From: Paludisphaera mucosa
GTDB lineage: Bacteria; Planctomycetota; Planctomycetia; Isosphaerales; Isosphaeraceae
Reading direction: 5' to 3'
DNA: 64,000 nt
NCBI RefSeq assembly: GCF_029589435.1
Contig: NZ_JARRAG010000003.1
Coordinates: forward strand, 1 to 64,000
The notes beneath the pieces are model-generated. The model was not told the origin of the DNA, did not search any database, and saw nothing but the letters and a program-made list of their open reading frames with translations. The position numbers and the translations under genes were made by a program. Position 1 is the stretch's first letter. Every line of letters begins with the position of its first letter. Shown piece after piece: positions 3,326 to 50,040 of the stretch.

Positions 3326-6300
3326 TTACCCTGGGACGGCGACACCGTCGGCCATGCGTACGGCGTCGCGACCGGCGGCTTTGGCCTCGTAAAGGGCCCG
3401 GTCCGCCTGGGTCAGGAGCTGCTGGGAACCCGATGGATCCAGGGTGCGGGCCCAGGCTGCGCCGACGCTGATCGTGACGCGGCAGGGGAGGCGGAGATCG
3501 TCGAGCCTCAGGCCGCCGATGCGGCGGCGGAGCCGCTCGGCGATCCGCATCAAGCCGGCGCGGTCGCATCCCGGGGCGACGACGACGAACTCCTCGCCCC
3601 CGTAGCGGGCCGCGAAGCCCGCGGCGCCGACCTCGTCGGCCAGCGCGGCCGCCACCCGTCGCAGGACCTGGTCGCCGGCGGGGTGGCCGCAGGTGTCGTT
3701 CACGCGCTTGAAGTGGTCGAGATCGGCCACAAGCAGGCCCAGGGGCCTCCCGGCGCGTCGGCAGTCGGCCCACGCGCCGTCCAACCGGGCCTGCAAGGCC
3801 GCTCGGTTGGACAGCCCGGTCAGCCCGTCGCTCGCCGCCTCGTGTTCCAGCCTCTCGACCTGGCGGCGATCCCGCATCGCCCTGCGGAGGCGGGCGCGGA
3901 ACTCCTCCGGGGTGATCGACCGCGGCAGGACGTCGGCGGCGCCGAGGTCGAGCCCCTCCGCCGCCGCCGCCGCGGCGATCTCGCCGGAGGCGGCGTCGGA
4001 GAAGACGATGATGGGCGTCGTCGCGGTCGAGGGCGACTGGCCGATCCGGAAGAGCAGGTCCGCGCCCGTCGTCGTTCCGGGTCCGTGCTCCAGCAGGATG
4101 ACGTCCGGGCCCGGGCTCGGCCACGCCTCCCAGGTCCGGCCCGTCGCCTCGTGGACCTCGACCCCGTCGGCCTCCAGCCAGCGCCGGAAGGCGAGGTCGG
4201 CCCCCCTCCGCGACGACGACCGGACGATCAGCACGCGCCGGGGCAGGAGGGGGTCGGATCGCCCGGATCGCCGCCGCTCGCCGCGGAACGAGGCGACGGG
4301 CCCGCGCGGCGCCGGCCCGCGCGAGCGGCGGTGGACGACGAGGCGGCTCGCCCCGCCGGCGAAGAGGCCGATCGCCGCCGCCAGCTCCGCGGGCCCCCCC
4401 CCGGCCATCTCCCTGGCGCCGTCGATGGCCTCGACCGCCAGGTCGTGGGGGAGCCTCGCGACGGCCTCGAGCGCGTCGAAGACGGCGGTCTCGGAGTCGG
4501 CGGTCGGCGGGACGGCTGGATCGCGTCCCCGCCGCGCCGGCGCGGCGGGGACGACGCTCGCGACCCCGGCCGCCGGCCTCGCCCGGGGCGCGTCGTCGGG
4601 CTTCGGCGCTTCGCCGGCGCGGGCCGGTTCCGTTCCCCGCCCCGCGACGTCCGACCTCGCGGCGGGGTCGAGGCCCGTCGGGGGCGCGGCGGCCAGGGCG
4701 GCCCCGAGGCCGCGGGCGACCGACACCAGGCCGGCCACGGCGGGCCCCTCCGCCCCGAAGCTGTTGAGGTGGGGGGCGCTGATCGGCCCGATCGTCGCGA
4801 TCCCGACGCCGCCGGCGGCCCGCGCGCCCCGAGGCTCGGCCGATTCGGCCGTCGCCGCGATCGCGTCGACCGGGCGTAACGACGCGTCCGCGGGGTAGGG
4901 GTTGATCGAATCGCTCAAGATGTTGCCTCGCAGTTCATAGCTCAGGGCCGAAGCCGTGCCTCCCTCGCCGGGGAGGCCCGCCACGAGGAGCGTATAGGCC
5001 CCGACGGGGAGGTGGACGACGACCCCGACGTCCTCGCCCACGCGGGCCGTCGCGCCGTAGACGACCGCGCCCGACTCGTCCACGACCTGGAGTCGGATCG
5101 AGCCCGAGCCCGGCCCCGCCCCGCGCGCCGAGAGGAGCCAGTGGACGATCTGGGTCTCGGACGCCACGTAGGTCGCCCGGACCTGGTTCCCGGCGTCTAC
5201 GTCCCCGGCCGCGACCGGCTCGAGGTCGACGCGTTCGTCGCCGAAGTAGGCGTCCAGGAGATAGGTCGACGGGACCGAGCCGCCGCCCACGCCGCCCTGC
5301 GTGAGCTGGATGTAGTAGGTCGCGCCGGCGACGGGGTTCCGGACCTGGACGATGTAGTCGTCGGGGCCGGCGTCCAGCACCTCGAAGTCGACCGCCCGAC
5401 CATCGCCGTCGTAGACCTTCAGCAAGGGCCGGGTCGCGGCGGCCATGATCTCCCGCGCCGTGACGAGCATCGTCGCCGGCGCCCGGCCGCCGAACGTGGG
5501 GACCACGACCTTGCTGACGGTGGTCGTCCTGGCGTCGTCCGTGGTCGCCATCGCGACCAGGTGGCGGCCCCGGACGTCGGGCGAGTTGGAGTAGGGCAGC
5601 AGCTCCCGGGCCGTCGCGAAGTCGGGGTTCGGGGTCGGGGTGAAGGCCCGGTACAGGACGGCCATGACCGTCGGATCGTGCCGCCACGCGGCCGACAGGA
5701 AGGCCGCGGTCAGGTGGCTCAGGGGGCGCGATCCGAGCATCGCCTGGCCCAACTCGTCCAACGCCCCCGACCCGAGGAGCTTCCGGAACTCGGCCGAGGC
5801 CCCCCTCTCGCCCGTCAGGCCCTGGAGGAACTCCCCCAGCACCTCGTCGTCGGCCCCCCATTGGTCGAAGCGCGCGAGCAGGTCGCTCGCGATCCGGCGG
5901 AGGCCGGCCGCGTCGGACGGCCCCGGATCCACATCGGGGAGCACCTTGGAGATCAGGTCGTCGAGGCTCCCGGTCTCTTGCAGACGGAACAGCAGGGGGT
6001 CCAGGCCCCCGGAGTCGATGAGGCCCAGCAGCTCGCCGCGGACTTCGGGCGAGGCCCAGAGCTCGCGGGCGAGGTCGTACAGGTCGCCCGAGGCCAGCAT
6101 GCCCTCGAACGCCTGGTCGAGGGATCCCGACGTGAGCATCTCTTTCAGGAATCCCCGGAGGTCGGTCCGGACCCACAGGTCGCGCATCAGGCCGTTGAGC
6201 GCCCCCCGCTCGTCGAGCGCCGACAGCAGGGCGGGGATCATGCCGGGCTCGAGGAGCGTATCGGGGTAGGACTGGGTGACCTGCTCGCCGAGCTTCAGGA

Positions 6301-7549
6301 AGGCGTCGTAATTGAAGGGCGCCCCCCCGAGGGAGGCCAGCGATGCGTCGACCACCCGGCCGAGGGCCTCGGTGTAGGCCGCGGGGTGTCCCTGGGGCGG
6401 GGTCCGGTAGAGGATGTCCAGCAAGGGCGCCCAGTCGGCCGTGGTGCTCGGCAGGCCGTTCTCGAAATGGGACATGAAGTACATCGACCCGAGCTCCTCG
6501 AGCTTGAGCCGATCGAGCGCCTCGAACGCCCCGGCGGCCGAGTCGACCACCAGGGCGTAGGAGCCGACGTCGAACGCGTCGCCCCGCGCCCCCCGCACCT
6601 CCACGAAGTAGTCGCGGCCGGCGGCCGGCCCGACGACGTCCACGTCGACCCAGCCGGCCTTGGGCCCGGCGGAGGCGGCGGAGCCCACGACCCGGCCCCG
6701 GTCGTCGCGGACGGTCACCTGCGAGGTCATGAGGCTGATCCACCGGGTCATCACGCGGAACTGCAGGTGCGCCGCCCCCTCGGGCGCCGTGACGCGGAAG
6801 ACGTCGACGTCGCCGGGGCCCAGGTCGGCCAGGACGGCCTCGGCCGGCCCCCAGGGGCCGACGACGATCGGGGTCGCCGTGGCGGGGGAGTCGTTGCCGG
6901 CCGGGCCCTCGTAGCGGTCGGGCGGGCGGGAGCCGTAGAGTTCCCGGAGGGCCCGGACGTCGTCCGGCTGCAGCTCGGAATTCCGGTCCCGGTAGAAGTC
7001 GAAGAGGGGCGAGCGCGGGTCCTCGCTGTCGGGGAACCCCAGGAGGTTGCCGGCCTCGTGGAGCACGACCGAGTAGAGGTCGACGGCCGGCACGCCCGGG
7101 GTCGTCCCGGCGTAGGCGCTGTTAAGGATCAGGTCGCCGGACCAGGTGCCCGCCGAGCCGTCGAAGGGGATCGAGTAGGCGACCACGTCGAGCGGCATCG
7201 GGTGGGCCGCCACGCGGACGTCGCCGAACTGGGCCGAGGTCGTCGCGAACCCCGGGCTCCCCAGCGGCTGGCCCCCGTCGGGGTTGAGCGAGAAGTTCAT
7301 GCCGGTGTGGGAGGCCCACGTCTGGAAGGCGCCCAGGATCTTGAGCTGCCAGTCGGGGCCCCAGGCCGCCGGGGCGGCCTCCTGGAGGTCGCTGGCGTAG
7401 GGACCGATCAGGGTCCCGTCGGGGACGAAGCTGATCGACATGGCCATCGGCATGGGCCAGGCGTTGCCGAACGCGGCCGGGACGTCGCGGGACTCGAGCC
7501 GATCCGCCCGGGGCCGCGAGCGGCGGCGAGCATGGCGATTCCGCTTCAT
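3326..7549 (-). CDS. fusion protein: matrixin-like region with altered zinc motif, degenerate receiver domain, and GGEEF diguanylate cyclase domain
   Basis: 1407 residues. The frame is open further upstream, but ATG 7549 is chosen because it overlaps the HD-GYP stop (ATGA) and begins MKRNRHARRRSRPRADR followed by LESRDVPA at about 18-25, the planctomycete secreted-protein start. Residues about 30-200 resemble a matrixin-type metallopeptidase, but the metal motif reads HEAGNLLGFPD (164-174), so the second zinc His is Asn. A PPC-like beta domain and a long helical repeat region follow to about 750, then beta-rich sequence to about 950 and a Pro/Ala-rich linker. A weak hydrophobic segment (AAAIGLFAGGASRLVV, about 1053-1068) precedes a receiver-like domain at about 1100-1215. 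That domain lacks the usual acidic pair (LIVRSSS), has Glu for the phospho-Asp (ILLEHGPG) and Arg for the conserved Lys (LPRSIT). A GGDEF domain with RYGGEEF (1317-1321) ends the protein; no RxxD inhibitory site is seen. Catalysis is likely only in the GGEEF part. Confidence 0.85.
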   Translation of the reverse strand: MKRNRHARRRSRPRADRLESRDVPAAFGNAWPMPMAMSISFVPDGTLIGPYASDLQEAAPAAWGPDWQLKILGAFQTWASHTGMNFSLNPDGGQPLGSPGFATTSAQFGDVRVAAHPMPLDVVAYSIPFDGSAGTWSGDLILNSAYAGTTPGVPAVDLYSVVLHEAGNLLGFPDSEDPRSPLFDFYRDRNSELQPDDVRALRELYGSRPPDRYEGPAGNDSPATATPIVVGPWGPAEAVLADLGPGDVDVFRVTAPEGAAHLQFRVMTRWISLMTSQVTVRDDRGRVVGSAASAGPKAGWVDVDVVGPAAGRDYFVEVRGARGDAFDVGSYALVVDSAAGAFEALDRLKLEELGSMYFMSHFENGLPSTTADWAPLLDILYRTPPQGHPAAYTEALGRVVDASLASLGGAPFNYDAFLKLGEQVTQSYPDTLLEPGMIPALLSALDERGALNGLMRDLWVRTDLRGFLKEMLTSGSLDQAFEGMLASGDLYDLARELWASPEVRGELLGLIDSGGLDPLLFRLQETGSLDDLISKVLPDVDPGPSDAAGLRRIASDLLARFDQWGADDEVLGEFLQGLTGERGASAEFRKLLGSGALDELGQAMLGSRPLSHLTAAFLSAAWRHDPTVMAVLYRAFTPTPNPDFATARELLPYSNSPDVRGRHLVAMATTDDARTTTVSKVVVPTFGGRAPATMLVTAREIMAAATRPLLKVYDGDGRAVDFEVLDAGPDDYIVQVRNPVAGATYYIQLTQGGVGGGSVPSTYLLDAYFGDERVDLEPVAAGDVDAGNQVRATYVASETQIVHWLLSARGAGPGSGSIRLQVVDESGAVVYGATARVGEDVGVVVHLPVGAYTLLVAGLPGEGGTASALSYELRGNILSDSINPYPADASLRPVDAIAATAESAEPRGARAAGGVGIATIGPISAPHLNSFGAEGPAVAGLVSVARGLGAALAAAPPTGLDPAARSDVAGRGTEPARAGEAPKPDDAPRARPAAGVASVVPAAPARRGRDPAVPPTADSETAVFDALEAVARLPHDLAVEAIDGAREMAGGGPAELAAAIGLFAGGASRLVVHRRSRGPAPRGPVASFRGERRRSGRSDPLLPRRVLIVRSSSRRGADLAFRRWLEADGVEVHEATGRTWEAWPSPGPDVILLEHGPGTTTGADLLFRIGQSPSTATTPIIVFSDAASGEIAAAAAAEGLDLGAADVLPRSITPEEFRARLRRAMRDRRQVERLEHEAASDGLTGLSNRAALQARLDGAWADCRRAGRPLGLLVADLDHFKRVNDTCGHPAGDQVLRRVAAALADEVGAAGFAARYGGEEFVVVAPGCDRAGLMRIAERLRRRIGGLRLDDLRLPCRVTISVGAAWARTLDPSGSQQLLTQADRALYEAKAAGRDAVRMADGVAVPG

Positions 7550-8748
7550 CGGACGCCTCCCCTCGCCGACACGACGGACGCGCCGGCCATGCCGACGCCC
7601 AGGGTGTGCTCGACCGCCGCCTCGACCGACTCGCCCAGGCCTTGCTGGAGCGTCGAGTAGAGATCGCGGCGGCATGCCATGAACGCCCGGACGACGGCCG
7701 GATCCCACTGCGTCCCCGAGCCGTCGGCCATGATCCGCTCGATCCGGGCGGCGGGGAGCCCGGGCCGATAAGGCCGGTCCGACATCATCGCGTCGCACGA
7801 GTCGGCCACCGCCAGGACCCGGGCCATCAGCGGGATCGCCTCCCCGGCGAGCTTGTCGGGATACCCCTGGCCGTCGTACCGCTCGTGGTGATTGCGGATC
7901 CCGGGCCGCAGGTGGGCGAGCTGGTGGATGCTGGAGACGAGCCGTTCCCCGATGACGGGGTGGGCCTGGACGTGCGCGAACTCCTCGGTCGTCAACGGTC
8001 CCGCCTTCTTGAGGATGTCGTCCCGGACGCCGATCTTGCCGATGTCGTGGAGCAGGCCCGCCAGGTAGAGGTCGTTGAGCAGGGGCCCGGGGAGTCCCAT
8101 CTGCACGCCGATCCGCTGGCCGATCCGCGCGACCCGCTCGCTGTGGCCGCAGGTGTGGGGGTCCTTGGCGTCGATGGCCGCCGTCAGGCAGTGGACCAGG
8201 CCGAAGAGGGACTCCCGCAACCGCTCGTACACGTGCAGGTGGTAGCGGTGGTTCAGCAGCAGCCGCCGGGCCAGGCTGACGACCTTCAGGTCGACGGGCC
8301 GGAAGGGGCGGGCCGGCTCGAACCGGATCGCGACGATCCAGCTGCCGAGCGTCCGGCTGACGCGCAGCATGGCGACGTGCGCCGGGGCCTCCGGGTCCCC
8401 CGGCGCGGGCCCCGGGATCCCCACCCCGCGGAGCAGGCGGGAATCGGCCCCGTCGAGCGGCAGCGAGCGCGCGATCCGCGCGATCCGCTCGGGCGCGGCC
8501 TCGGCCCGGCCGGCGTGCAGCGGGGGCTCGGACCCCGTCCCCGGGTGCCAGAGCACCAGGTCGGACCGGGTCCCCTCGCGCACCGCCTCCAGGCTGAGGC
8601 GGATCTGGCCGGCCGTCTCGACCTCGGCCTGGAGGGCCTGGGCGTAGCGGTCGAGTGTGTCCCAGGCCCCCTGGAGGCCGTCGCTCGGGATACTAGGCGA
8701 CGCGACGACGGTGAATCTCATGGGGTCACCCCTGACGTTTCTGAACAT
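7546..8748 (-). CDS. HD-GYP domain c-di-GMP phosphodiesterase with N-terminal GAF-like region
   Basis: 400 residues. The N-terminal half (about 40-175) looks like a GAF-type sensor: LVLWHPGTG, then VSRTLGSWIVAIRFE. The HD-GYP domain fills about 185-365. It has HSERVARIG, the HD pair in GLLHDIGKIGV (H234, D235), the HHERYDGQGYP signature at about 286-296 and ARVLAVADSCDAMMSDRPYR. Family knowledge says such domains hydrolyse c-di-GMP to pGpG and GMP. It starts 12 bases after the kinase gene stop and its own stop overlaps the next ATG by four bases, so it is the middle gene of a coupled operon. An internal ATG at 8721, preceded by AGGGG, is an equally plausible start; the upstream ATG at 8748 has AGGA in front of it. 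Confidence 0.93.
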   Translation of the reverse strand: MFRNVRGDPMRFTVVASPSIPSDGLQGAWDTLDRYAQALQAEVETAGQIRLSLEAVREGTRSDLVLWHPGTGSEPPLHAGRAEAAPERIARIARSLPLDGADSRLLRGVGIPGPAPGDPEAPAHVAMLRVSRTLGSWIVAIRFEPARPFRPVDLKVVSLARRLLLNHRYHLHVYERLRESLFGLVHCLTAAIDAKDPHTCGHSERVARIGQRIGVQMGLPGPLLNDLYLAGLLHDIGKIGVRDDILKKAGPLTTEEFAHVQAHPVIGERLVSSIHQLAHLRPGIRNHHERYDGQGYPDKLAGEAIPLMARVLAVADSCDAMMSDRPYRPGLPAARIERIMADGSGTQWDPAVVRAFMACRRDLYSTLQQGLGESVEAAVEHTLGVGMAGASVVSARGGVR

Positions 8749-8760
8749 CTTGATCCTAGG

Positions 8761-11673
8761 TCATCGTTTCCCGAGCGAGGGGGAGACGGCCGGCCCGGGG
8801 GGCGACGCCGCCCGCTGCCAGCGTGCGAACTCGGGGCGGGCGCGGATCGGGTCGAGGTCCGGGTCCACGGCGACGAGGTCCCAGCCGAACCCGCCGCGGA
8901 GGGCGCGGGAGAGGAGTCCCAGGGCGGCCGCGGCGTCGCCGGGCTCCCGTCGCGACGTCTGGGCGTAGACGCCCGCGAGCTGGTACAGCGTCGCCGGCGA
9001 GGAGTCTCGCGAGAGGGCCCCCTCGGCGTCGGCGAGGGCCTCCTCGCGCCGCCCCAGGCGGGCCAGCAGGACGCCCCTCCCGCTCCGGGCCGGCACGTAG
9101 TCGGGGAACGCCTCCAGGGCCCGCCCCAGCAGCCGGATCGCCTCCTCGGCCCGCTCCGGCGTCCGGGAGAGGACGTGGGCCGAGTTCTGCAAGGCGGCGA
9201 GCGATCGGGGGTCCAGGCGGAGCGCCTGCCGGAAGTCCTCCAGCGCCCCGTCGGGGTCCGAGTCGGCCCGGGCCAGGCCGCGGGCGATCCAGCCCGGCTC
9301 GTCGGTCGGCCGGAAAGTCATCCCCAGCTCGCGGTCGCGCCTCGCCCCCTCGGCGTCGCCGGCGTCGCCGCGGATCCGGGCCCTCATGAAGACGGCCCGG
9401 GCCGGGCCGGCCCCGCGTTCGAGGGCGAGGTCGACGTCCCGGACCGCCTCGCCGTACCGGCCCAGTTGGTGCAGCGCCAGGGCGCGGTCCAGGAGGACGT
9501 CGGGCCGCCCGGGAGCCTGCCGGAGGGCCTCGTCGAAGTCGGCCAGGGCGCGGGCGGGCTCGCGGCGGCGGAGGTGGACGAGGCCGCGGTTGAAGTGCGG
9601 CCAGGGGTCGGCCGGGCGCAGGGCGATGCAGGCCTGGTAGCAGCCCAACGCGTCGACGTCCTGTCCGAGCCGATCGTGGCAGACGCCCCGGAGGGACCAG
9701 GGCCACCAGAGCCCCGGGTCGAGCCGCGTCGCCTCGCGGAGCGGCCCCAACGCCGCCTCGAACCGGCCGCGGACGGCGTGGTCGACGGCGGCCAGATAAT
9801 GGTCGCGGGCCGTGAGCGGCGGCGCCGCGGCCGCTCGGGCCGCGAAGGCCCGGGCCTCCCCGGCGCGGCCGAGCCGGGCGAGCAGCTCGGCCCGCTGCGA
9901 CCAGAGCGCCGCCGGGACGCCGCCGTCCGGGTGGCAGGCCTCGGCCTCGCGGTTCCAGGCCAGCGCCCGGCGGACCTCGGCCTCGGCCCGTTCGTCGTCG
10001 CCGCGCTCGGCCGCCTCCAGCCAGGTCGCCTGCGCCAGCAGCCAGAAGGCCTCGCCCCGATCCTGCGTCCATCGTCCCCGCGCGTCGAGGTCGAGGTAGG
10101 AGCCCGGGTCCGCGACGTCCCGCGACGGGCCCCCTCCGCCCGGGCCGAGCCCCAGCGCCCGACGGCACGCGTCGATCCCCTCGCGTCGGCGCGAGGCGTC
10201 GACGCCGGACGAGTTCAGGGCCGACCGCGCCTCGTCGAAGTCCCGGGCGAACCGCGCCCGCGCCTCGCGAGCCCGCTCCCGCATCCCCGCCCGGTGCGCC
10301 CCCAACCCCAGGCCGCCGGCCAGGGCCACCGCCAACGTCACGGCGAGGGCCGCCAGAGTGCCCGGCGAGGTCAGCCGAGGATGGCGGCGCGCCCATTTGC
10401 CCAGCCGCTCCCGGGGCGACGCGTCGGCGGCGTACCGCAGCGGGCGGTGCTCGATCTGCCGGCGGAGGTCCTCGCGCAGCTCCCCGGCCGTCTGGTAGCG
10501 GCGGTCGGGATCCGGCTCCAGGCAGTGGCGCACGATCGACGCCACGGCCGGCGAGACGGCGTGGTTCCAGGGCCGAGGGTCCGGCGGCGGGCCCGTCCGA
10601 TCCTCGATCATGCGGGCGACCAGCTCGGGGGCCGGCATCCCCGCCCGCCCGGCGAAGGGGGGCCGGCCGGTCAGCAGCTCGTAGAGGATCACGCCGAGCG
10701 AATAGAGGTCGCTGCGCGCGTCCACCCGGCGGTCGGCCCCGCGGAAGGCGTCGAGGTGCTCCGGGCTCATGTACGGGAGCGTCCCCCCGACGGCCCGGGG
10801 ACGTCCCGTCGTCGACTCGTCCTGCGAGAGGTTGAAGTCCAGCAGCAGCGGCTGCCCCTCGTCGGTGATCAGGACGTTCGCGGGCTTCAGGTCGCGGTGC
10901 AGGATCCCTCGCTCGTGGGCGTGGCCCAGGCCGTCGGCCAGGCAGGAGAGGATCCATAGGGCCGCTTCGATGTAGCTCATGCCTTCCAGCATCCGGCGGG
11001 TGACCTGGGCCATGCCGCTCGCCGCCCGCTCCTGGGGCGGCCGGGGGGGCGGGGCCGCGGCCCCCTCCGACGCGGGCCCGGCCTCGCGCGACGTCGCCTC
11101 GGCCGCTTCGAATCGGGCCCGGCTCCGCGCCTGCAAGGTCTCCAGCAGGTCCCTCCCCGAGCCCGGCGGCTCGTCGCGCCCGGCGACGTCGGCGAGCACG
11201 TCGGCGAGCGTCGTCGGCCCGAGGTAGGGCATGCAGAACGCCTGGAGCCGCTCGGACCGGTGGACCGAGTAGATCGGCACGACGTGCGTGTGCTGGAGCC
11301 GGGCCAGGGTCCAGGTCTCGCCCTCCAGCGCGCAGGCGACCTTCAGGACGACCGGCCGGTCGGCCAGCTCCCCCTGGTTCGCCAGGAAGACCCGCGCGAA
11401 GCTGCCCCGGCCCAGCTCGGCGACCAGCCGGAAGCCCAGGAACGCCTCGCCCGCCTCCGGCATCCGGACCGGCCCGGCGATCCGGCGGTGCGGCCCGCTC
11501 CCGGCTCGTTGCGGGGGATCGGCCTGCGATCCGATCCACGAGGCCGTCTCCGTCGGCGTCCGGCGCATCGCCGGCGTGCGACGTCGCGGCCGGTCGCGCG
11601 TCGACGGCGGCGGGATCGGGCCTGCATCGCGAGCCACGCCCTCGAAGCCCGCCGGCCAACTGGGGATGTCCAT
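8761..11673 (-). CDS. Ser/Thr protein kinase with transmembrane segment and C-terminal TPR repeats
   Basis: 970 residues. After a basic, low-complexity leader, the kinase domain begins at about residue 78 with a glycine loop ELGRGSFARVF and the lysine in PVVLKVAC. The catalytic loop reads LHRDLKPANVLI. The metal-binding motif is DFN (LLLDFNLSQD) in place of DFG, a variant common in planctomycete kinases. Then come GGTLPYMSPEHL and the DLYSLGVILYELLTGRPPF stretch. A long Ala/Pro-rich insert lies at about 155-220, before the catalytic loop. A membrane segment is at about 430-455 (LAALAVTLAVALAGGLGLG). The rest is TPR-like, with repeats such as DPWPHFNRGLVHLRRREPARALADFDEAL and DVLLDRALALHQLGRYGEAV. 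The kinase probably faces the cytoplasm with the TPR part across the membrane. It is the first gene of the operon with the HD-GYP and GGEEF genes. Confidence 0.93.
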   Translation of the reverse strand: MDIPSWPAGFEGVARDAGPIPPPSTRDRPRRRTPAMRRTPTETASWIGSQADPPQRAGSGPHRRIAGPVRMPEAGEAFLGFRLVAELGRGSFARVFLANQGELADRPVVLKVACALEGETWTLARLQHTHVVPIYSVHRSERLQAFCMPYLGPTTLADVLADVAGRDEPPGSGRDLLETLQARSRARFEAAEATSREAGPASEGAAAPPPRPPQERAASGMAQVTRRMLEGMSYIEAALWILSCLADGLGHAHERGILHRDLKPANVLITDEGQPLLLDFNLSQDESTTGRPRAVGGTLPYMSPEHLDAFRGADRRVDARSDLYSLGVILYELLTGRPPFAGRAGMPAPELVARMIEDRTGPPPDPRPWNHAVSPAVASIVRHCLEPDPDRRYQTAGELREDLRRQIEHRPLRYAADASPRERLGKWARRHPRLTSPGTLAALAVTLAVALAGGLGLGAHRAGMRERAREARARFARDFDEARSALNSSGVDASRRREGIDACRRALGLGPGGGGPSRDVADPGSYLDLDARGRWTQDRGEAFWLLAQATWLEAAERGDDERAEAEVRRALAWNREAEACHPDGGVPAALWSQRAELLARLGRAGEARAFAARAAAAPPLTARDHYLAAVDHAVRGRFEAALGPLREATRLDPGLWWPWSLRGVCHDRLGQDVDALGCYQACIALRPADPWPHFNRGLVHLRRREPARALADFDEALRQAPGRPDVLLDRALALHQLGRYGEAVRDVDLALERGAGPARAVFMRARIRGDAGDAEGARRDRELGMTFRPTDEPGWIARGLARADSDPDGALEDFRQALRLDPRSLAALQNSAHVLSRTPERAEEAIRLLGRALEAFPDYVPARSGRGVLLARLGRREEALADAEGALSRDSSPATLYQLAGVYAQTSRREPGDAAAALGLLSRALRGGFGWDLVAVDPDLDPIRARPEFARWQRAASPPGPAVSPSLGKR

Positions 11674-20387: not shown

Positions 20388-21566
20388 TCAGGCGGCCTCG
20401 GAGTCGACGGGGGCGGTGGGGAGCCAGACGACGAACTCGCAGCCCTGGCGGCCGCCGCCGCTGCGGGCCTCGACCTTGCCGCCGTGCAGCTCCACGAGCC
20501 GCTTGACCAGCCAGAGGCCGACGCCCAGGCCGCTGGCGATCCCCCCCTCGTCGTCGCGCTTCACCTGGGTGAAGATGTCGAAGACGGCCTCCAGCATGTC
20601 CTCGGGGATCCCCGGCCCGTCGTCGATCACCCGGAAGACGACGCCCTCGCCCTCGCCGTCGCGCTCGACGTCGAGGCGGATGTGCCCCCCCGCCTTGGTG
20701 TACTTGGCGGCGTTGTGCAGCAGGTTGTAGAGGACCTGCGACACCCGCTCGGAGTCGGCCTGCAAAATCAGGGGCTCGGCGGGGAGCGTGACGGCCAGCT
20801 CGTGGCGGGCCTTGGCGATGAACGAGCGGACGTTCTCGGTGGCCGTCGTCACCATCCGGTCCACCGGGACCGACTCGTACTTGAGCTTGATCAGGCCGCG
20901 CGAGAGTCGCGCCACGACCATGAGGTCGTCGATCAGCCGGACGATGTGCTTGACCTGGCGCTCGATCATGGCGCGGCTGGTCTCGACCACGGAGGGGTCG
21001 TCGCCGGCCAGCCGCATGATCTCCAGGGCGTTGCGGATGGGGACCAGCGGGTTGCGCAGCTCGTGGGCCAGCAGCGAGAGGTACTCGTTCTTGCGGCGGT
21101 CGACGTCGCGGAGGGCCTCGTTGGCGCGGGCCAGCTCGGCGGTGCGCGCCTGGACCCGGCGCTCCAGCTCCTCGGCGTGCTCCTTCTCCTGGAGGCTGTA
21201 GCGGATGGAACGCTCCAAAAGGGTCGCGTTGAGCCGCCACTTCTCCAGGAAGTCGGCGGCGCCGGCGCGCATGGCGTCGAGGTCGATGGCGCGCTCGTCG
21301 AGGCCGGTCAGCAGGATCATCGGCGCGGCCGCGCCCCGGGCCACGGCCTCGCGGATGACGCCCAGTCCGTCGCGCGGGCCCAGGCCGTAGTCGACCAGGT
21401 AGAGGTCGTGGCGGCCCTCGCAGATGACGTCGACGGCGCGGTCGGCGTCGGCCAGCCATTCGAGTTCGAACCGGCTGTCGGCGATCTCCGCCAGCAGGTC
21501 GCGCGCGAGGATGTAGTCCTCCTCGTCGTCGTCGATCAGCATCAGCCGTATCGGCCTGTCAGGCAT
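20388..21566 (-). CDS. hybrid signalling protein: N-terminal receiver plus histidine kinase
   Basis: 392 residues. The N-terminal receiver has the acidic triplet IDDDEED, the phospho-acceptor Asp59 in YLVDYGLG, the Thr in ILLTG and the Lys in FLEKW. A coiled segment (QEKEHAEELERRVQARTAELARANEAL, about 126-152) links it to a HisKA domain with H168 in LLAHELRNPLVPI. A HATPase_c domain follows: N-box LYNLLHNAAKYT, G1 VIDDGPGIPE and G2 GLGVGLWLVKRL. This receiver-first kinase (RcsC-reversed type) is common in planctomycetes. It lies 90 bases downstream of the PAS kinase on the same strand, so they are probably co-transcribed. The upstream signal and output partner are unknown. Confidence 0.93.
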   Translation of the reverse strand: MPDRPIRLMLIDDDEEDYILARDLLAEIADSRFELEWLADADRAVDVICEGRHDLYLVDYGLGPRDGLGVIREAVARGAAAPMILLTGLDERAIDLDAMRAGAADFLEKWRLNATLLERSIRYSLQEKEHAEELERRVQARTAELARANEALRDVDRRKNEYLSLLAHELRNPLVPIRNALEIMRLAGDDPSVVETSRAMIERQVKHIVRLIDDLMVVARLSRGLIKLKYESVPVDRMVTTATENVRSFIAKARHELAVTLPAEPLILQADSERVSQVLYNLLHNAAKYTKAGGHIRLDVERDGEGEGVVFRVIDDGPGIPEDMLEAVFDIFTQVKRDDEGGIASGLGVGLWLVKRLVELHGGKVEARSGGGRQGCEFVVWLPTAPVDSEAA

Positions 21567-21656
21567 CCGAGCCTCCCTCCGATCCTTGGGGGTCGCGACG
21601 CGGCGGGGGCGGCCCGGCGGCGTCGATCGAGATCGGGCTCGGCGTCGGCGGGTCGA

Positions 21657-22793
21657 TCATGGCCGGGCCGTCCCCGACTCCGAGACGTGGGCCGGCAGGG
21701 CGACCCGGAACGTGGTCCCCGCGCCGGGGGCGCTGGTCGCGGCGATCGTGCCCGCGTGGCGGTCGACGATCCGCCGGCAGATCGCCAGGCCCATCCCCGC
21801 GCCTTCATAAGCGTTGCGGCCGTGGAGCCGCTGGAAGGGCTCGAAGATCCGCTCGTGGTGCTCGGCGTCGAAGCCCACCCCCTGGTCGGCCACCTCCAGC
21901 TCCCAGGCCGCGGCGACCTGGCGGGCGGCCACGCGGACCGAGGGGGGCTCGCCGGGGCGGTGGAACTTCAGGGCGTTGCCGATCAGGTTCTGGAAGAGCT
22001 GACGCATCTGCACGGGGTCGGCCTGGATGGTCGGCAGGGGGCCGACCTCGACCCGGCCGCCGCTCTCGCGGATCGCGACTTCCAGGTCGGAGACCACCTC
22101 GGCGGCGACGGCGGCGAGGTCGACGGCCGCGAACGACCGGGCCTCGAGGCCGACCCGCGCGAGGTCCAGCAGGTCGACGATCAGGCCCCGCATCCGGCCG
22201 GCGGCCCGGACGATCCGCCGCAGGTCCTCGCGGCCCCGGTCGTCGAGCATGGGCCCGCAGCGGTCCGCGAGCCGGTCGCCGAAGGCCTGCACCTTGCGCA
22301 GGGGCTCCTGCAGGTCGTGCGAGGCGGTCGCCGCGAACCGCTCCAGGTCGTCGTTGCTGCGCCTCAGCTCGGCGGTCCGCTCGCGGACCAGGCGGTCGAC
22401 GGCCCCGGCCTGGGCGGCCTTCAGGTCGTCGACGTCGGTGCAGGAGCCGACCCACGACGCCACCGCGCCGTCGGCGTCGCGGCGGGGGAGCGCGCGGACC
22501 AGGAACCAGCGGTGGCGGCCGTCGCCGGCCCGCAGGCGGCACTCGGCCTCGACGGGGGCGCCCGCGGCCAGGGCGTCGCGCCAGGCGCGGCCGAGGCGCT
22601 CGCGGTCGTCGGGGTGGACGCGGTCGGCCCAGCCCTCGGCGAGGTCGGCGTCGGCCGGCAGGCCGGTGTACTCGTTCCAGCGGCGGCTGCAGTAGGCGGG
22701 ACGGCCGTCGGCGAGGGCCTCGAACACGATGTGCGGCAGCGCCTCGGCCAGGGCGTAGGCGGGGTCGGCGTCGGTCTGGATCTCGGTCTTCAT
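21657..22793 (-). CDS. PAS-domain sensor histidine kinase
   Basis: 378 residues, with no membrane segment, so cytoplasmic. A PAS domain lies at about 15-125: ALPHIVFEALADGRPAYCSRRWNEYTGL, with PAC region GDGRHRWFLVRALPRRDADG and VGSCTDVDDLK. The HisKA phospho-His is H159 in ATASHDLQEPLRKVQAFGDRL, the bacteriophytochrome-like HisKA class. The HATPase_c domain has FQNLIGNALKFH, ADQGVGFD and GAGMGLAICRRIVDRH. It is the upstream gene of a two-kinase unit and is divergent from the NtrC-type regulator (about 210 bases apart). Phosphotransfer to the following receiver-kinase or to that regulator is plausible but unproven. Confidence 0.93.
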   Translation of the reverse strand: MKTEIQTDADPAYALAEALPHIVFEALADGRPAYCSRRWNEYTGLPADADLAEGWADRVHPDDRERLGRAWRDALAAGAPVEAECRLRAGDGRHRWFLVRALPRRDADGAVASWVGSCTDVDDLKAAQAGAVDRLVRERTAELRRSNDDLERFAATASHDLQEPLRKVQAFGDRLADRCGPMLDDRGREDLRRIVRAAGRMRGLIVDLLDLARVGLEARSFAAVDLAAVAAEVVSDLEVAIRESGGRVEVGPLPTIQADPVQMRQLFQNLIGNALKFHRPGEPPSVRVAARQVAAAWELEVADQGVGFDAEHHERIFEPFQRLHGRNAYEGAGMGLAICRRIVDRHAGTIAATSAPGAGTTFRVALPAHVSESGTARP

Positions 22794-23003
22794 CGCCGTC
22801 CCGTCCGTCGTCTTCCTGAAAGGTCGCGGGCCGTGAGACGCGAGGTCCCCGCGGGGCCTCGGAAACTATCGGACTAGCAAACCTTATTCCGCGGCCCGTG
22901 TCACGGGGGACGCAAAGTGCGTAGGCGGGGCCTGACGCCCCCGGGACGCCTGTGATAAGATGAGGCGAGTCGCGCGGACGGCCGCAGCAGACGCCCCCAG
23001 GCG

Positions 23004-24539
<1,536 letters not shown>

Positions 24540-38075: not shown

Positions 38076-39497
38076 ATGGCCACCGAGGCCCAGATCCAGG
38101 CCAATCGCGCCAACGCCAAGAAATCGACCGGGCCTCGCACCGACGCCGGCAAGGCCCGGTCGCGGCTCAACGCCCTGAAGCACGGGTTCCGCGCCCGCAG
38201 GGTCGACCCGGTCCTGCCGCAGGAGGATGCGGGGGAGCTGCAGGCGCGGATCCAGGAATGGCTCGACGACTACAAGCCGACCAACGCCGTCGAGCGCGAC
38301 CTGGTCGTCCGGGGGGCGAAGATCGCCTGGTCGCTCGACCGCGCCGAGCGGCACGAGACCGCCCTGCTCTCGCGACGCGTGCGCCAGGCGCTGCTGCACT
38401 CGCGGGCGAGGGGCACGGCGAAGGCCTGCGGGCTGGGCCGCAAGCTGCTCTACCTGACCGGCAAGCGGCTGCTGCCGGGCTCGGGGCCGGACTGGGCCGA
38501 CGACCCCGCCGCGTTCGTCGCCGCGCTCGAGGAGACGCCCGAGGGCGCGCGCTGGCTGCTCGACCGCTGGGTCGAGGTCCGCTGCCTGATCATCTCGGAC
38601 GAGCTGTGGACGTACCAGGACCAGTTCAAGTTCGTCCGGCTCCTGGGCAAACAGCCGTTCGACGCGATCGACGACGCCGAGCTGAACGAGATCTTCCTGG
38701 CCTGGGAAGTCATCGAAGAAGGCTGGGGCGTGCGGTTCTGGAAGAAGGTGCAGGAGACGACCCCCTACGAGGATCCCGCCTTCAGCGCCTGGCGGCTCTG
38801 GCGCGAGCTGGTCACCCGGCCGGCCGACGCCGACGCGGCCGTCGCGCTGCTGCGCGGCGTCGCCCAGCGCGAGATCGACCGCCTCGAAGCGCTGATCGTC
38901 GACCTCGACGTCGTGGAGGGCGAGGACGCGACCGAGGCGGCCGAGCAGGCCTCGTTCTCGGCCGGCGACGGCTCCGAGCGGCTGCGGCGGTACCAGGCGG
39001 TCCGGGGCCGCGAGCTGATCAAGACCATCGAGACCCTGAGCAAGCTCCGCAAGGAGTCCGCCAAGCCCGAGCCGAAGTCGAAGGCGAAGCCGACGCCGGC
39101 CCCCAAGCCGAGCCCGATCCCGAAGCCGGCCCCGGCGGCGGCGGCGAAAAAAACGACGACGACCGAACCCAAGCCAGCAGCGGCCGAACCCGTTTCGGTG
39201 AATCGTGTTATGATCGCCTCACCGGTCCCCGCGATCCCCGAAGGAAGCCGAATCGAAGCCAGGCGACGGCCGGTCGCGCCGGCCCCGATGGTCGAGCCGG
39301 AACACACGGCCGCGGACTTCGCCGCGATCCGGCTGCGGGTGGTGAGGGAGCAGCAAAAGACAGGCCCGAGGGAACGCGGCGGGCGTCCCTCGGGCCTGTG
39401 GGATCAGGGGGTCGGATCGGACGAGGCGGCGGTCAGACCGGCCGCTTCCGCGACGTCCCCAGGCGGCTCTCGTCGAGCGACTGGATCGCCCGGCTGA
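38076..39497 (+). CDS. conserved planctomycete hypothetical protein (QANRANAKKSTGP family)
   Basis: 473 residues. It begins ATEAQIQANRANAKKSTGPRTDAGKARSRLNALKHG, an N-terminus shared by many uncharacterised planctomycete and other bacterial proteins. The middle is helical (about 60-320). A low-complexity Pro/Lys/Ala segment follows (about 325-375), then a short basic tail. The last 35 residues are translated from a perfect terminator-type inverted repeat and from the antisense of the convergent giant gene, so the natural stop may have been lost. Ribosome site GAGGAG before the ATG. Function is unknown; a nucleic-acid role is only a guess from the basic character. Confidence 0.8.
   Translation: MATEAQIQANRANAKKSTGPRTDAGKARSRLNALKHGFRARRVDPVLPQEDAGELQARIQEWLDDYKPTNAVERDLVVRGAKIAWSLDRAERHETALLSRRVRQALLHSRARGTAKACGLGRKLLYLTGKRLLPGSGPDWADDPAAFVAALEETPEGARWLLDRWVEVRCLIISDELWTYQDQFKFVRLLGKQPFDAIDDAELNEIFLAWEVIEEGWGVRFWKKVQETTPYEDPAFSAWRLWRELVTRPADADAAVALLRGVAQREIDRLEALIVDLDVVEGEDATEAAEQASFSAGDGSERLRRYQAVRGRELIKTIETLSKLRKESAKPEPKSKAKPTPAPKPSPIPKPAPAAAAKKTTTTEPKPAAAEPVSVNRVMIASPVPAIPEGSRIEARRRPVAPAPMVEPEHTAADFAAIRLRVVREQQKTGPRERGGRPSGLWDQGVGSDEAAVRPAASATSPGGSRRATGSPG
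39360..39399. terminator. bidirectional terminator hairpin inside the overlap of two convergent genes
   Basis: 14-base perfect arms ACAGGCCCGAGGGA (39360-39373) and TCCCTCGGGCCTGT (39386-39399) with a 12-base loop. It lies within the reading frame of the 38076 gene and just 3' of the giant gene stop (39433). Confidence 0.7.
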
Positions 39498-42400
39498 AGG
39501 CGTCGGAGGTCAGCGGGGCGGCCGTGACGGCCGCGGGGTTGACGGCGACGACCGTCTGGGCGACGGCCTGCGGGCCGGCCGAGGCCGCCGCGGGGGTCGC
39601 CTTGGCCCGGATCGCGGCCCCGGTCGCCCGGGCGAACCGGCCCCGGACGGGCGTGCGGACCTTGGCGGCGGGGGCGAGCTGGAAGGTCGCGGCGGCGATG
39701 GGGGTCGACGAGCCGTCGGCCCCGGCCGCCCGGGCGGTCAGCGTGTAGGAGCCGTTGCGGGCCCCCGCCGGGAGCTGGAAGGCGTAGCGGCCGGCCGCGT
39801 CGGCCACGGCCGTGCCGACCTTCTTCGACCCCATCACGCCGGTCCCGCCGAGGTACAGGTCGACCTTCGTCCCCGGGGCGGCCGCCCCGTCGAACCAGGG
39901 CTGGCGGGCCCCCGAGGCGTTCGAGCCGGACAGCGAGAGCGACGGCAGCGTCGAGACCGTCTCCTGGTTGACCGGGGTCGCGGCCGAGGTCGCGGCGCGG
40001 GCGACGGTCGCCGCGGGGGCGGTCGTCGCGGCGCCGGTCGTGGTCGTGGTCGACGTCGTGGTGGTCGTCGTCGAGCCGGCGACGTCGGACCGGGCGGGCC
40101 CGGCCGTGGCCGAGGCCGAGGCGAAGCCCCTCGTCTGGGCCGAGGGGAGCGCCCCGGCGATCAGGCTGGAGGTGGTCAGCGTCCGGTAGGCCAGCGGGGC
40201 GCCGACCGGGACGACGGGGGCCCCGACGGCCCCGGGGAAGCTGGTGACCTCGGCGTCGGCCCCGTTGGGCAGGGTCTGCACCATCTTCACCAGGAACTGG
40301 CCCGTGGTCGGGCGGTAGACGGCGGGCAGGTCCCAGCCCACGCCGGCGTAGTCGGCGGGCACCGGGATGTCGCCGCCCTGGAAGACGACCTGGGTCGGGA
40401 ACTGCGATCCGGCCGGCCGGGCGATCGTGAAGACGCCCAGGGTCGGGTCGAAGACCGCGGGGATCGTCTTGTACGCCAGCCCGTTGTCGTGGAAGTACAG
40501 GTTGTCGTACTTGCCGGGGACCGGGATCTGGTTGGCGGGGAGCGTGGCGACGACGTCGAAGGTCCCGCCGGCCAGCGAGTAGGTCAGGAACTGGCCGGTG
40601 CTGGGGCGGTAGACGGTGGGCTGGTCGTAGCCAAGCCCGAGGAAGTCGCCGACCAGGGGGACGTCGCCGGCGACCCCGAAGCCGAACGAGCGGATCGAGC
40701 CCGACGGGGTGGTCAGGGTCCAGACGCCGGTCGTGCCGTTGACCAGGTCGTAGACGCCGTACTGGGTCGCCCCGGGGCCGTCGAAGTTGCCCACGATCGG
40801 CACGCTGGAGCCGCCCGTCCCGAACTTGAAGGTCAGGCCCCCCTGGGTCGACCGCCAGACGACCCAGCTGGCGTCCGCCGAGCGGAAGGCGGCCAGGTCG
40901 TTCTTGCCGTCGGCGTCGAAGTCGCCGGCCAGCGGGATGTCGCCCGCGGAGCCGACGCTGGCCCCGTTGGGGAACCAGATGGGGACGAACGACGGCGGCG
41001 TGTAGTGGGTGAACCACTGGCCGAAGCCGACGCCGTCGTTGCGCAGGTAGAGCATGCTCTGCGACTGCGAGAGGCTCGAGGAGCCCCCCAGGTCGAGGGC
41101 GCTGCCGCTGTAGTCCAGCCCGGTCGTCACGATGGTCATCGCCAGCGTGGGGCTGCTGCCGGGCGCGACGTTGCCGGCGGGGTCGACGGCGGTCGCGGTC
41201 AGCCCGATCAGGCCGTTGTTCAGCGCCAGGGGGAGCTGCACCGCGAAGTTGCCCGAGGCGTCGGCCGTGGTCTGGGCCAGGATCGGCCCGGCGGGGTTGG
41301 TGAGCGGGGCCTGGTAGATCCGGATGATCGACCCCGCGTTCGTCGCCCCGACGGTCCCGTTGAAGACCGGCTTGCGGACGTTGGTGATGTTGTCGCCGAC
41401 GATCCCCGAGTCGTAGTTCGGGTTCAACGTCAGGCTCGGGGCCGCCGTGGGACCCTGGGTCTTGACGCGGACCGTCACCTGCGGGCTGGGATGCGCCGCC
41501 AGGCCGGCCGCGTTGGAGGCGACGGCCACGACGGTGTAGGTCCCGTCGCCCAGCGTGGGCAGGAGGAGCGTGAACCCGCCCGAGGCGTCGGCGATGGTGG
41601 TGACCGGCGGCGAGAACGGGGCGAACGTGCCGCCGGCGCCCAGCAGGTACAGCTCGACCGCGGCCCCGGCGGTGGTGGTCCCGACGAACCCGGGGTTGGG
41701 GTGGTTGGTGTAGTTCTGCGCCGGCACCAGGCCGGTGTTGTCGGAGGCCCGCAGGGCCAGCGAGGGGTCGGCGGGGACCGTCGAGTTCCCCAGGTCGTCG
41801 GCGTCGACCGTGATGCTCAGGGTGATCGGGTTGCCGACCGCCCCGGCGTCGTCGGTCGCGTAGATCTTGAGGACCTTCAGGCCGTTGCTGGGGAGCAGGC
41901 CCGCTCCGACCTGGATCGTGAAGTTGCCGAAGCTGTCGGTCCAGTTGGCCGGGACGTTGGTGCCCGGCGGGTTGGTGGTCGGGTCGGTGCCCGGGCGGGC
42001 GATGTCGAAGCCGCCGATGATCTTGCCGTCGGTCTGGTCGTAGATGGTGATCCGGGTCGCGTTGTTGAACCCGGACGTCATGCTCAGGCCCGAGACGCGG
42101 AACTGGGAGGTCGTGACGATCGGCGTGCCGTCGGGGGCCGTGCCGTTGGTGTCGGCCGCGGCGACCCGCACCGTCCCGGGGATCGTCAGCGGGGCCATCT
42201 TGATGCTGAACATGCCCCGGCCCCAGGTCGAGGCCAGCAGCAGGTCGGGGTCGCCCTGGGCCGTCGCCGAGTAGGGGTCGAGCGGGCCCAGCAGGTTGGG
42301 GACGCCGGTGGCGGGGTTGATCGCCCCCAGCGACAGGTCGAGGTCGGTGGCCTCGGTCCGGGGCAGGTAGCCCCCCAGGATGGGGGCGCCGTCGACGTCC

Positions 42401-45400
42401 TGGTTGGGGTACAGGCTCCAGGTCACGCCGTTGTCGAGCGAGCGGAAGACGCCCGTGTCGCCCGAGACGTAGAGGACCGGGTGCAGGCCCGCGCCGACCG
42501 GGTCGGCCGTCGCGTTGGGGATCGAGTACCGCCAGTCGACGACCATCGCCGAGAGCGACAGCGACTGGCTGAGCTTGATGCCGTTGGGGTCGGTGTTCTG
42601 GTTGTAGTTCTGCCCGAAGATCGTGTACGACAGGTTGCGGAGGTTGCCCGTGACGTTGACCCACGAGGCCCCGGCCGCGACCGAGTCCCTGATGAAGAAG
42701 ACGCCCGTCGAGGTGACGGCGTAGGCGGCGTGGCTGCCCCGGACCGGGCTGGGGATGATCCGCAGCACGGACGAGCCGTCGAGGCCCGTCGAGGCCTCCT
42801 GCCACGAGTTCTGGGTGCCGCCGCCGCCGGTCCTCGTGAGGAAGACCCGGCCGGTGTTGGTGCCGACGTACATGAAGTTGCCGAGGTTGCCGATGCCGCC
42901 GGGCGCGGCCGGGTCGGGGGCGCCGTAGGCCAGGGCCTGGCTGTACCCCGTCGGGCTGCCGAAGACCGTCGGGGCCCCGATCTCGAACCAGGTGCCGCCC
43001 TGGTTCGTGGTCGAGAAGATCCGCCCGGTCGACGAGCTGATCATGATCTGCTGGCCGGACAGCGAGTTGACCGCGAAGGTCGCCCCGGGGCCGGGGCCCC
43101 ACTGGGGGTCGGGGACGTCCGAGCTGCCGCTGCTCGACTGGATCAGGCCGAACGTCCGGCCGATGTGGTTGACCCGGTAGAAGGTCGTCCCCTGGTTGAC
43201 CGACATCGAGCCCGGGGCGAACGCCTGGTAGACCGTCCCGAAGCCCTGGGGGTCGACGGCGACGCCGCCCGAGCTGGTCCCCTCGAAGGTCGGGAACCAG
43301 AGCAGGTCGCCGTTGTTCAGGATGTTCCCGTCCGAGAACTGGCCCTGGTCGTTGCTGCTGCCGTAGAAGAGGGCCTGGTCGCGGCTGACGGCCGCGCCCA
43401 CGTTGTTGGGCTGGACGGCGCCGTAGTAGAACTGGGTGATCTGGAGGTTGCCGTTGCGGTCGCCGCCGGGGGTCGGCGTGGTCCCCACGCTGGTCCCGAT
43501 CAGCTGCTTGCCGTCGTCGTCGAGCACCGACCAGACGCCCCGGTTGGTGCCGTAGACCAGCCGGGTGAGGCCGGACGTCGGGTCGATCATCGTGATCAGC
43601 CGGTGGTAGTCCGGCGCGGTCCCGCCCCCGCTGATGGGGGCGTCGAACGGGATCCACTCGGTCCCGAAGCCGTTGTTCGTGAACTGGACCAGGTTGCGGA
43701 CGAACCGGGTGGCGTCGGCGTTGAACGGGTTGCCGGGGTCGCGGATGTAGTTCAGGAAGTCGCCCTGGGTCGCGAAGCCGTCGAGGATGTTGCCGATCGT
43801 GACCGGGCCGGTCGAGCTCCAGTCGGTCAGGCCGTCCTTCGAGACCGACGAGAAGAGGGTCAGGTTGTAGGCGTCCCAGATCTTGGTGGCGTCGACCCGG
43901 ATCATGCCGGTGCCGGTGGCGGGGGCGTGGAAGCCGCCCAGGTAGACGACGTTGGGGTTCGTCGGGTCGACGGCCAGCGACAGGGCGAAGTTGCCGTCGC
44001 CGTTGGTGACCGTGTAGTCGTTGAGGGTGACGTCGTTGCTGGGGATCGAGGGGGTGAAGTTGCCGAGCGGGGGCTCGGTCGGGATCCGGACCTGCACCCA
44101 GTTCGCGCCGAAGTCCTTGGTCATGAACAGGCCGAAGAGGCTGCCGTCGGTGTTGGCGACCGCGGCGTACAGCCAGCCGGCGTAGAGCTGGTCGGCGAGC
44201 GGGACGCCGGTGAGGTCGGGCTTGACCAGGGCGATCCGGCCGTGGGCCCCGTTGGGGTTCACGCCGGGGTTGGCGACGGCCACGCTCCTGCGGTCGAACG
44301 TGTCGACGACCAGCGGGTTGCCCACGCCGCCGGCGAGGATGTTCCAGACCTGGCCGCGGTTGGGGCTGATGTAGACGCCGTCGCCCCGGAAGGCCGCGTA
44401 GAGGACCTGCAGGTTGGGGTCGGTGCCGCCGCCGGTGTCGCTCGTGGGGTCGAGCACGACGTCGGTGGCGTTGCCGGCCTTCATGAGCTGCCAGTGGTCG
44501 CCGGTGTCGAGGCTGCGCCAGAGGCCGCCGTTGGTCCCGCTCACCGCGGCGTAGATGATGACCTGGTTCTGGAGCGTGGCCTTGGGGTCGACCACGACCT
44601 TGAAGGTCGTCGTCCCCACGAAGATCCGGTCGCGGGCCGTCGAGGCGATCGGCAGCGGGGCGCCGGCGGCGTCGACGTTGGTGGAGCTGTCATAGAGCCG
44701 CCAGGTGGCCCCGCCGTCCTTGGAGATCAGGAAGCCGACGCCCTGGCTGCCCGAGTCGCCCTCGCCGGTGGAGGCGATCACGATCGACTGGTTGGGGTCG
44801 TTGTTGCGGGCGAAGACGGCGATCCCGCCGATGTTCAGGCCGTTGCTGGGGCCGAAGTCGGTCAGGGGGATGTAGGTCGGGCCCTGGGGGTCGGTGGTGA
44901 GGAAGTTGGTCGTCTTCCAGACGCCGCCGCTGGCCCCGCCGATGAAGAAGGTGTTGCCGGTGGGGTCCGACGTGTCCTGCGCCATGGCGCCGATGCGGCC
45001 GCTCGAGCCCGAGACCGGGGCCGGGCCGACCGAGGTCCAGGTGTTCCGCGAGAGGGCGTTGGAGGCGTCGGTCTGGAAGATCCGGAAGCTGCCGCCGGTG
45101 CGGTCGGCGACCGGCTCGCCCAGGCCCGAGGTCGGCAGCGGCTTCTCGAAGAGGAGCGACCAGCTGTTGAGCGTGGCCGCGGCCCCGCCGGTGCTGGTGA
45201 TCGTCAGCTGCCACGTCCCGCCCGACGGCGCGTCGAGGAAGCCGTTCGTCGGGTTGAGCAGCGACCGCAGGGGGTTGAACGACGCGCCCGAGTACGGCGG
45301 CGAGCTCTGGCTGATGGGCGTCGGGGCCGCGTCGTCGAAGATGGCGTCGACGAACCCGCCGCCGTTGGGGCCCTGCACCAGGTTGGCGAAGAGCGTGACC

Positions 45401-49554: not shown

Positions 49555-50040
49555 GACCAAGTCTCCAAATCTCACGTTGAGGATTCGCCCTTCGCTCGGC
49601 AACGGCTATGGCGACGGTAGGGATTGCCCGGCTCATTCCGAATGACTCATGGAGCGAATCTGAGGTGGATCGAGAAAACATGCCGGCTCAACCGACCAGT
49701 GTCAAATTCCCAAACGACCCCTTTTTCCGCCCGCCCACCCCTATCCCTCCGAGATCGCCCGACCCCTTCGGTCGGTTCGGAATCGGGCATGCTTGTCATC
49801 ATCCATGGTGCACATCATCCAAGTCAAGATTCCGGTCCCGAACTTTCCGATTTTCGTCCCCTCCCCTGCCCTCCCCGCTTCTCGCAGCCAGACCCCATCG
49901 ATCCCGGAGACAGCCCATCGCCCCCCCTGCCCCGCGCCACGGCCGGCGTCGCCGGGGCCGCTGAAGGTCGAGGCGCGGCCGTCCTTCCTCCTTATTGAGG
50001 GAGCTTGCGGCGGCGCGGCCGACGGTCGACCCGCCCCGAC
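49555..50040. other. intergenic, nothing recognised
   Basis: This stretch upstream of the giant gene holds only chance frames. It is ordinary GC-rich sequence before the CCAAGG-rich segment. Confidence 0.4.

Follow-up and report, generated by a model that had tools for sequence, protein, structure and literature searches.

Do three adjoining genes of the planctomycete Paludisphaera mucosa, encoding a Ser/Thr kinase, an HD-GYP phosphodiesterase and an unusual GGDEF protein, form one unit for the control of cyclic di-GMP (c-di-GMP), or do they simply share an operon? The window (the whole stretch of 64,000 nucleotides that was analysed) is part of contig C3 (180,582 bases) of a genome of 8.21 Mb in nine contigs. 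The three genes all lie on the minus strand (Table 1). According to the ORF list and a direct reading of the letters, a 12-base gap separates the kinase gene from the HD-GYP gene, which overlaps the third gene by ATGA, as the first-pass annotation had described. Its naming of a TPR-bearing Ser/Thr kinase, an HD-GYP protein with both signature motifs and a 1407-residue protein ending in GGEEF is likewise confirmed by Pfam and by the motifs. To these we add a matrixin domain, a receiver-like domain and a transmembrane (TM) segment of the kinase, all absent from that annotation. For the third gene, which we call the fusion, a longer 1490-aa frame (from GTG 7798) is less likely than the start at ATG 7549, because homology and the ATGA overlap both begin there. 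No FHA domain or other phospho-reader was found in the operon, and neither a GGDEF-matrixin fusion nor this trio appears in the titles and abstract beginnings among the literature matches listed. Plasmid records gave one 98-base DNA match and kinase relatives below 60% identity; a plasmid location of the window is not claimed, because contigs C2, C4, C5 and C6 have PF02195 matches and C3 has none.

Table 1. Genes and protein features of the operon, with window positions
Feature	Residues	Window position	Strand	Basis
Hanks-type Ser/Thr kinase with TPR repeats	970 aa	8761..11673	-	Pfam; tree clade I
Kinase domain	about 80-395	10489..11436	-	Pfam Pkinase
Single TM between kinase domain and TPR part	440-458	10300..10356	-	KD 2.09
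TPR region	about 560-890	9004..9996	-	Pfam
HD-GYP c-di-GMP phosphodiesterase, N-terminal GAF-like domain	400 aa	7546..8748	-	Pfam; AF2 model
HD-GYP domain	188-352	7693..8187	-	Pfam HD_5 E 2.4e-33; HSERV, HDIGK, HHERYDGQGYP present
Fusion protein: pseudo-matrixin, beta domain, helical region, beta region, marginal TM, pseudo-REC, GGDEF	1407 aa	3326..7549	-	
Matrixin domain	73-206	6932..7333	-	Pfam PF00413 E 1.4e-7, above cut-off
HEAGN (second zinc-binding His of HExxH replaced by Asn)		7046..7060	-	motif read
PPC-like beta-sandwich	211-345	6515..6919	-	AF2 strands, best local pLDDT of a poor model
All-helical region	346-700	5450..6514	-	low-confidence model
Marginal TM, then basic tail	1054-1072	4334..4390	-	KD 1.47, crude dG +3.3
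Pseudo-receiver, DVILLE	1104-1221	3887..4240	-	Pfam Response_reg 1121-1221, below cut-off
GGDEF domain	1238-1395	3365..3838	-	Pfam E 9.7e-40, positions 1-160 of 161

The kinase has the catalytic Lys, the HRD Asp and the DFG Asp of Hanks-type enzymes (VVLKV from residue 108, HRDLKPAN from 259), the DFG Gly being changed (DFN at 279-281). Its TM has the lowest crude insertion energy (dG about 0) among all segments scanned in the three proteins, and from this segment the TPR part is predicted to lie outside the cytoplasm. The kinase tree, which leaves out L112 (a fragment of less than 300 aa) and the kinase of Tautonia sociabilis (kinase domain missing), places the window kinase in a clade of 11 (support 98/97) with L021, L022, L084-L089, L093 and L063.

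The HD-GYP protein has the complete HD and HHExxDGxGYP signatures (HDIGK at residue 234, HHERYDGQGYP at 287). The best PDB match of its AF2 model (pLDDT 73) is 4mcw (381 columns), which we take to be the GAF-HD-GYP protein PmGH and which is also found, with 5z7c, among the solved relatives of the protein. The two share a GAF-like plus HD-GYP layout, although the TM-score is only 0.46 and the window protein stands in a row with a kinase and a cyclase. Pfam gave no match for the GAF-like part.

Like the solved matrixins karilysin and macrophage metalloelastase, which profile A1 finds, the fusion matches PF00413. Unlike them, it has HEAGN for HExxH and departs from the M10 zinc site HExxHxxGxxH/D, and its matrixin domain is therefore predicted to be unable to cut, a fold relative that has probably lost protease activity. 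HEAGN is common to the fusions of the window, the congener G003 (L161) and T. sociabilis (L023), and HExxH is kept in seven of the eight unfused matrixin relatives examined (the exception is L088). A matrixin search at E 1e-25 in 392 genomes drawn from the phylum (no more than five candidates scored per genome) had G000 and G039 as its only matches; G003 and G051, where a match was expected, presumably fell outside the draw.

Behind the matrixin domain, the names PPC1-like and PPC2-like are our own labels for segments of the fusion: Pfam PPC has no match in the window protein, and its sole match, below cut-off, is in the homologue L021. The helical region is present in the three fusions (window, G003 and T. 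sociabilis), with no match in unfused relatives. The AF2 model of the ectodomain is too poor (pLDDT 40.9) for a structure search. Among eight N-termini, no signal-peptide family of NCBIfam matched at E 5 except for one chance match, and LEPR-XLL, presumably the name of the candidate N-terminal export motif, is not claimed; the two papers listed for this name concern other proteins.

The TM candidate of the fusion ranks third by Kyte-Doolittle hydropathy within the window protein, two other stretches being higher. A hydrophobic segment with a basic tail stands at the same place in G003, where three other stretches score higher by the same measure; none was seen in the T. sociabilis fusion frame, and the unfused matrixin proteins L086 and L089 also end in a C-terminal hydrophobic segment. 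On the crude scale none of these segments is strong: their dG values range from +2.4 to +3.6, while that of the kinase TM is about 0. The arrangement proposed in the first-pass annotation, with an extracytoplasmic sensor and an intracellular cyclase, would depend on this one marginal segment, which is not the most hydrophobic stretch of the protein.

The C-terminus has the receiver-GGDEF layout of PleD (1w25), its best solved relative by score, and of 6zxb, 6zxc and 6zxm, which span both domains. It differs from these in that its receiver is without the acceptor Asp, the I-site is lost and both domains stand behind some 1050 residues of envelope type and a marginal TM. The phospho-acceptor Asp is replaced by Glu (DVILLE), and RSS stands where an Asp pair is usual. 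Among 12 standalone REC-GGDEF relatives, the acceptor position holds Asp in five (L166, L168, L169, L172, L173), and it is already Glu (two) or Gln (five) in L162-L165, L174, L175 and L178. GGEEF is intact at residue 1317 within a full GGDEF domain. The RxxD inhibitory site, which is not required for cyclase activity, reads GAAG in the window and DGLG in G003, and is kept in 12/12 aligned standalone relatives.

A search of relatives for the three-gene neighbourhood, whose conservation the first-pass annotation had made a condition of its reading, found the exact trio intact nowhere else. T. sociabilis (L023, L092; G051 contig C104) has the same gene order with all three genes broken: the kinase domain gives no match, splits affect both the TPR part and the HD-GYP, and the fusion has a frame change within its helical region and, by eye, no GG[D/E]EF in its three frames. 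Low coverage (6.5) of this draft contig may explain part of the breaks. A neighbouring HEAT-repeat gene on the contig is open over 729 aa while all three genes of the trio are broken. G003 encodes the whole fusion in one frame (L161, 8106-12323), with 51% identity over 1381 aligned codons, and just before it stands a 99-base stretch 76.8% identical to the window kinase gene (window 11144-11242, E 2e-14). This remnant implies that the ancestor had such a kinase next to the fusion and that G003 has since lost it by deletion, and the gene order in the window and T. sociabilis places an ancestral HD-GYP there as well. Since the G003 fusion has neither a kinase nor an HD-GYP beside it, the fusion can do without them in cis. 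Across five congeners, the kinase had no match at E 1e-100 (19 candidates scored per genome, as in the whole kinase search), and a search with the REC-GGDEF end at E 1e-30 found the G003 fusion, one GGDEF-only match in G001 and nothing in the other three. The trio is thus old but being lost, and a strictly conserved three-gene system is rejected.

More interesting than the trio as a conserved system are the family-wide linkage of kinase and HD-GYP and the alternation of sigma factor and c-di-GMP genes beside the kinase. In 45 genomes of the family, 52 HD-GYP places were found at E 1e-70, each contig place being counted once and L025-L031 being judged the same contigs as places already counted. 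A P0003-like kinase/TPR match lies within 4 kb of 43 of these 52 P0002-type places, and five of the nine places without one have less than 2 kb of contig upstream. The same holds for 1/9 other HD-GYPs of the family, three of which (L182, L184, L186) have less than 2 kb on one side, and for 0/6 in other families (Fisher p 6e-5 for 43/52 vs 1/9, with shared descent ignored). GGDEF matches within 4 kb are found at 6/52 places (1/9 and 1/6 in the two controls), and the cyclase is therefore not a regular neighbour. The "self-contained switch" of the first-pass annotation stands insofar as opposing c-di-GMP enzymes share an operon with a kinase and the kinase/HD-GYP part of it recurs; it does not stand as a conserved trio or for the cyclase as a standard component.

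Several arrangements of the linked genes occur. Kinase and HD-GYP are divergent in 20 rows of the kinase tree, including the second copy in the window genome itself (L102), and co-directional in L099 and L100. Co-directional kinases are also found with FHA-GGDEF genes (L097, where Pfam confirms both domains, L098, L101 and L112) or with FHA-GGDEF and HD-GYP (L096), and divergent ones with a GGDEF fused to or just before the HD-GYP (L117, L118, L122, L124); L127 has no GGDEF match, though labelled GGDEF-HD-GYP in the trees. At seven loci a kinase is followed by a matrixin, with no c-di-GMP genes; L021 has a kinase, an HD-GYP and an unfused matrixin, and L022 a kinase and an HD-GYP. The HD-GYPs of the window, L021, L022 and T. 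sociabilis group in a single clade (97/91). Its sister is a set of ten rows, the GGDEF-HD-GYP loci among them, and all fourteen together have support 100/100. Tree discordance does not, in our view, prove that kinase and HD-GYP were paired repeatedly, as the first, unrooted kinase tree fits one ancient pairing. When the tree is rooted on four other kinases (a weak root, with one outgroup row misplaced), the kinases of GGDEF-HD-GYP loci fall outside the other clades, which tentatively favours more than one pairing.

An ECF sigma gene precedes the kinase on the same strand at six of the seven kinase-matrixin loci (L084, L085, L086, L088, L089, L093); the seventh, L087, begins inside the kinase, and L063 was left out of this count. 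No HD-GYP or GGDEF was found in the retrieved stretches of L084-L089 and L093, and no sigma match at the four loci with HD-GYP (window, L021, L022, T. sociabilis) or in the first 24 kb of the window. The alternation gives a Fisher p of 0.005, with few independent events. Kinase L091, outside the clade, also has an ECF sigma gene before it on the same strand; there and at the six sigma loci a large surface-type protein gene adjoins the TPR kinase. According to a review, Ser/Thr kinases are one of five ways of ECF sigma factor control (PMC8103513). PknS-EcfK is reported to be likewise a Hanks kinase with a sigma factor output (PMC13147305), and a sigma gene precedes the kinase in six close relatives of the window kinase; the window differs in having c-di-GMP enzymes and no sigma match at its near end. 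Replacement of sigma by c-di-GMP is the likelier direction of exchange, and the best reading of the window locus is a kinase/envelope-protein unit with c-di-GMP turnover as its output in place of a sigma factor. We would go further only with some reserve, at a little short of even odds: the Hanks kinase and envelope protein may be a portable sensor module with an exchangeable output, an ECF sigma factor in most close relatives and c-di-GMP turnover here, the cyclase having finally been fused onto a non-cutting pseudo-protease envelope protein.

Our main reading, to which we assign a probability of about 0.5, is that the three genes constitute one c-di-GMP control unit, with shared envelope sensing and phosphorylation of one or both enzymes by the kinase. 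The envelope part of the fusion and the TPR part of the kinase would sense the same envelope state, perhaps by mutual contact, and the ectodomain would set cyclase dimerisation via the TM and the non-phosphorylatable receiver. We propose that the cyclase escapes product feedback because it has no I-site. The HD-GYP would supply the off-step, and the kinase would set the balance by phosphorylating one or both c-di-GMP enzymes, by analogy with related kinases presumed to act on the ECF sigma factors in front of them. Gene order, domains, motifs and conservation of the three genes are read from the sequence; the membrane topology, the envelope sensing, the control of the cyclase through its dimer and the kinase action on the enzymes are inferred. 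A precedent for such gating is DgcB of Bdellovibrio, an FHA-GGDEF cyclase controlled through phospho-Thr (PMC6733907), and FHA-GGDEF genes adjoin kinases related to that of the window. The kinase of DgcB is reportedly not identified, whereas the window operon encodes a kinase but no FHA. L096, L097, L098, L101 and L112 are candidate pairs of kinase and phospho-gated cyclase of the DgcB type.

An unlikely but serious alternative is that the fusion is an independent transmembrane diguanylate cyclase, which shares an operon with the kinase and the HD-GYP but has no direct functional contact with either. G003 fits this well, having lost both neighbours while its fusion stays open and constrained, as do the standalone REC-GGDEF relatives, which have no fixed kinase or HD-GYP neighbour, and the rarity of GGDEF near the HD-GYPs of the family. 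What speaks for the control unit is that the remnant in G003 testifies to kinase and fusion having once been adjacent, that T. sociabilis has the same three-gene order and that related kinases stand beside FHA-GGDEF genes.

It is quite improbable that the true partner of the kinase is the envelope protein or the HD-GYP, and that the GGDEF, a chance acquisition from a standalone REC-GGDEF gene, is drifting. The degenerate receiver and lost I-site would be expected of such a domain, no GG[D/E]EF was seen in T. sociabilis, and unfused kinase-matrixin pairs (7 loci plus L021) are commoner than the fusion. However, GGEEF is intact in both the window and G003, and the GGDEF domain is the most constrained segment between them, with a dN/dS, from a simple pairwise count in GC-rich DNA, of 0.36 vs 0.50-0.88 for the seven others (matrixin 0.53, PPC1-like 0.50, helical 0.88, PPC2-like 0.83, linker 0.79, TM and tail 0.53, receiver 0.65).

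That an assembly error or a missed frameshift joined two genes, which the first-pass annotation had named as a danger to its reading, is scarcely credible and finds support only in the existence of unfused relatives of both halves, whereas GC is highest at codon position 3 in 14/14 bins of 100 codons, the end-to-end G003 homologue has the same junction in frame and under constraint, and in T. sociabilis a single frame holds both the receiver and the end of the helical region; the fusion is genuine.

At this locus an unusual fusion cyclase thus stands in an operon with a kinase and an HD-GYP; we regard it as a variant of known signalling through c-di-GMP and Hanks kinases and not as wholly new. 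For most of the very many Ser/Thr kinases of planctomycetes no target is known, and the recurrent pairing with HD-GYP, FHA-GGDEF and GGDEF-HD-GYP proteins names candidate kinase-substrate pairs. These pairings bear on a question left open in the DgcB paper (PMC6733907), namely which kinase gates a phospho-controlled cyclase. If the alternation of outputs holds with more genomes, it would mean that one signalling chassis has been rewired from transcription to a second messenger.

Elsewhere in the window, a 935-aa frame (53101-55908, plus strand) joins a sigma factor, with sigma-70 regions 2 and 4, to a beta-propeller of WD40 repeats that comes after it. An open frame of 3389 codons with a coding-like GC pattern (39433-49602, minus strand) is a giant gene, and positions 20388-24539 hold two minus-strand histidine-kinase genes, of which one includes a receiver, together with a divergent response regulator gene of the sigma-54 type.
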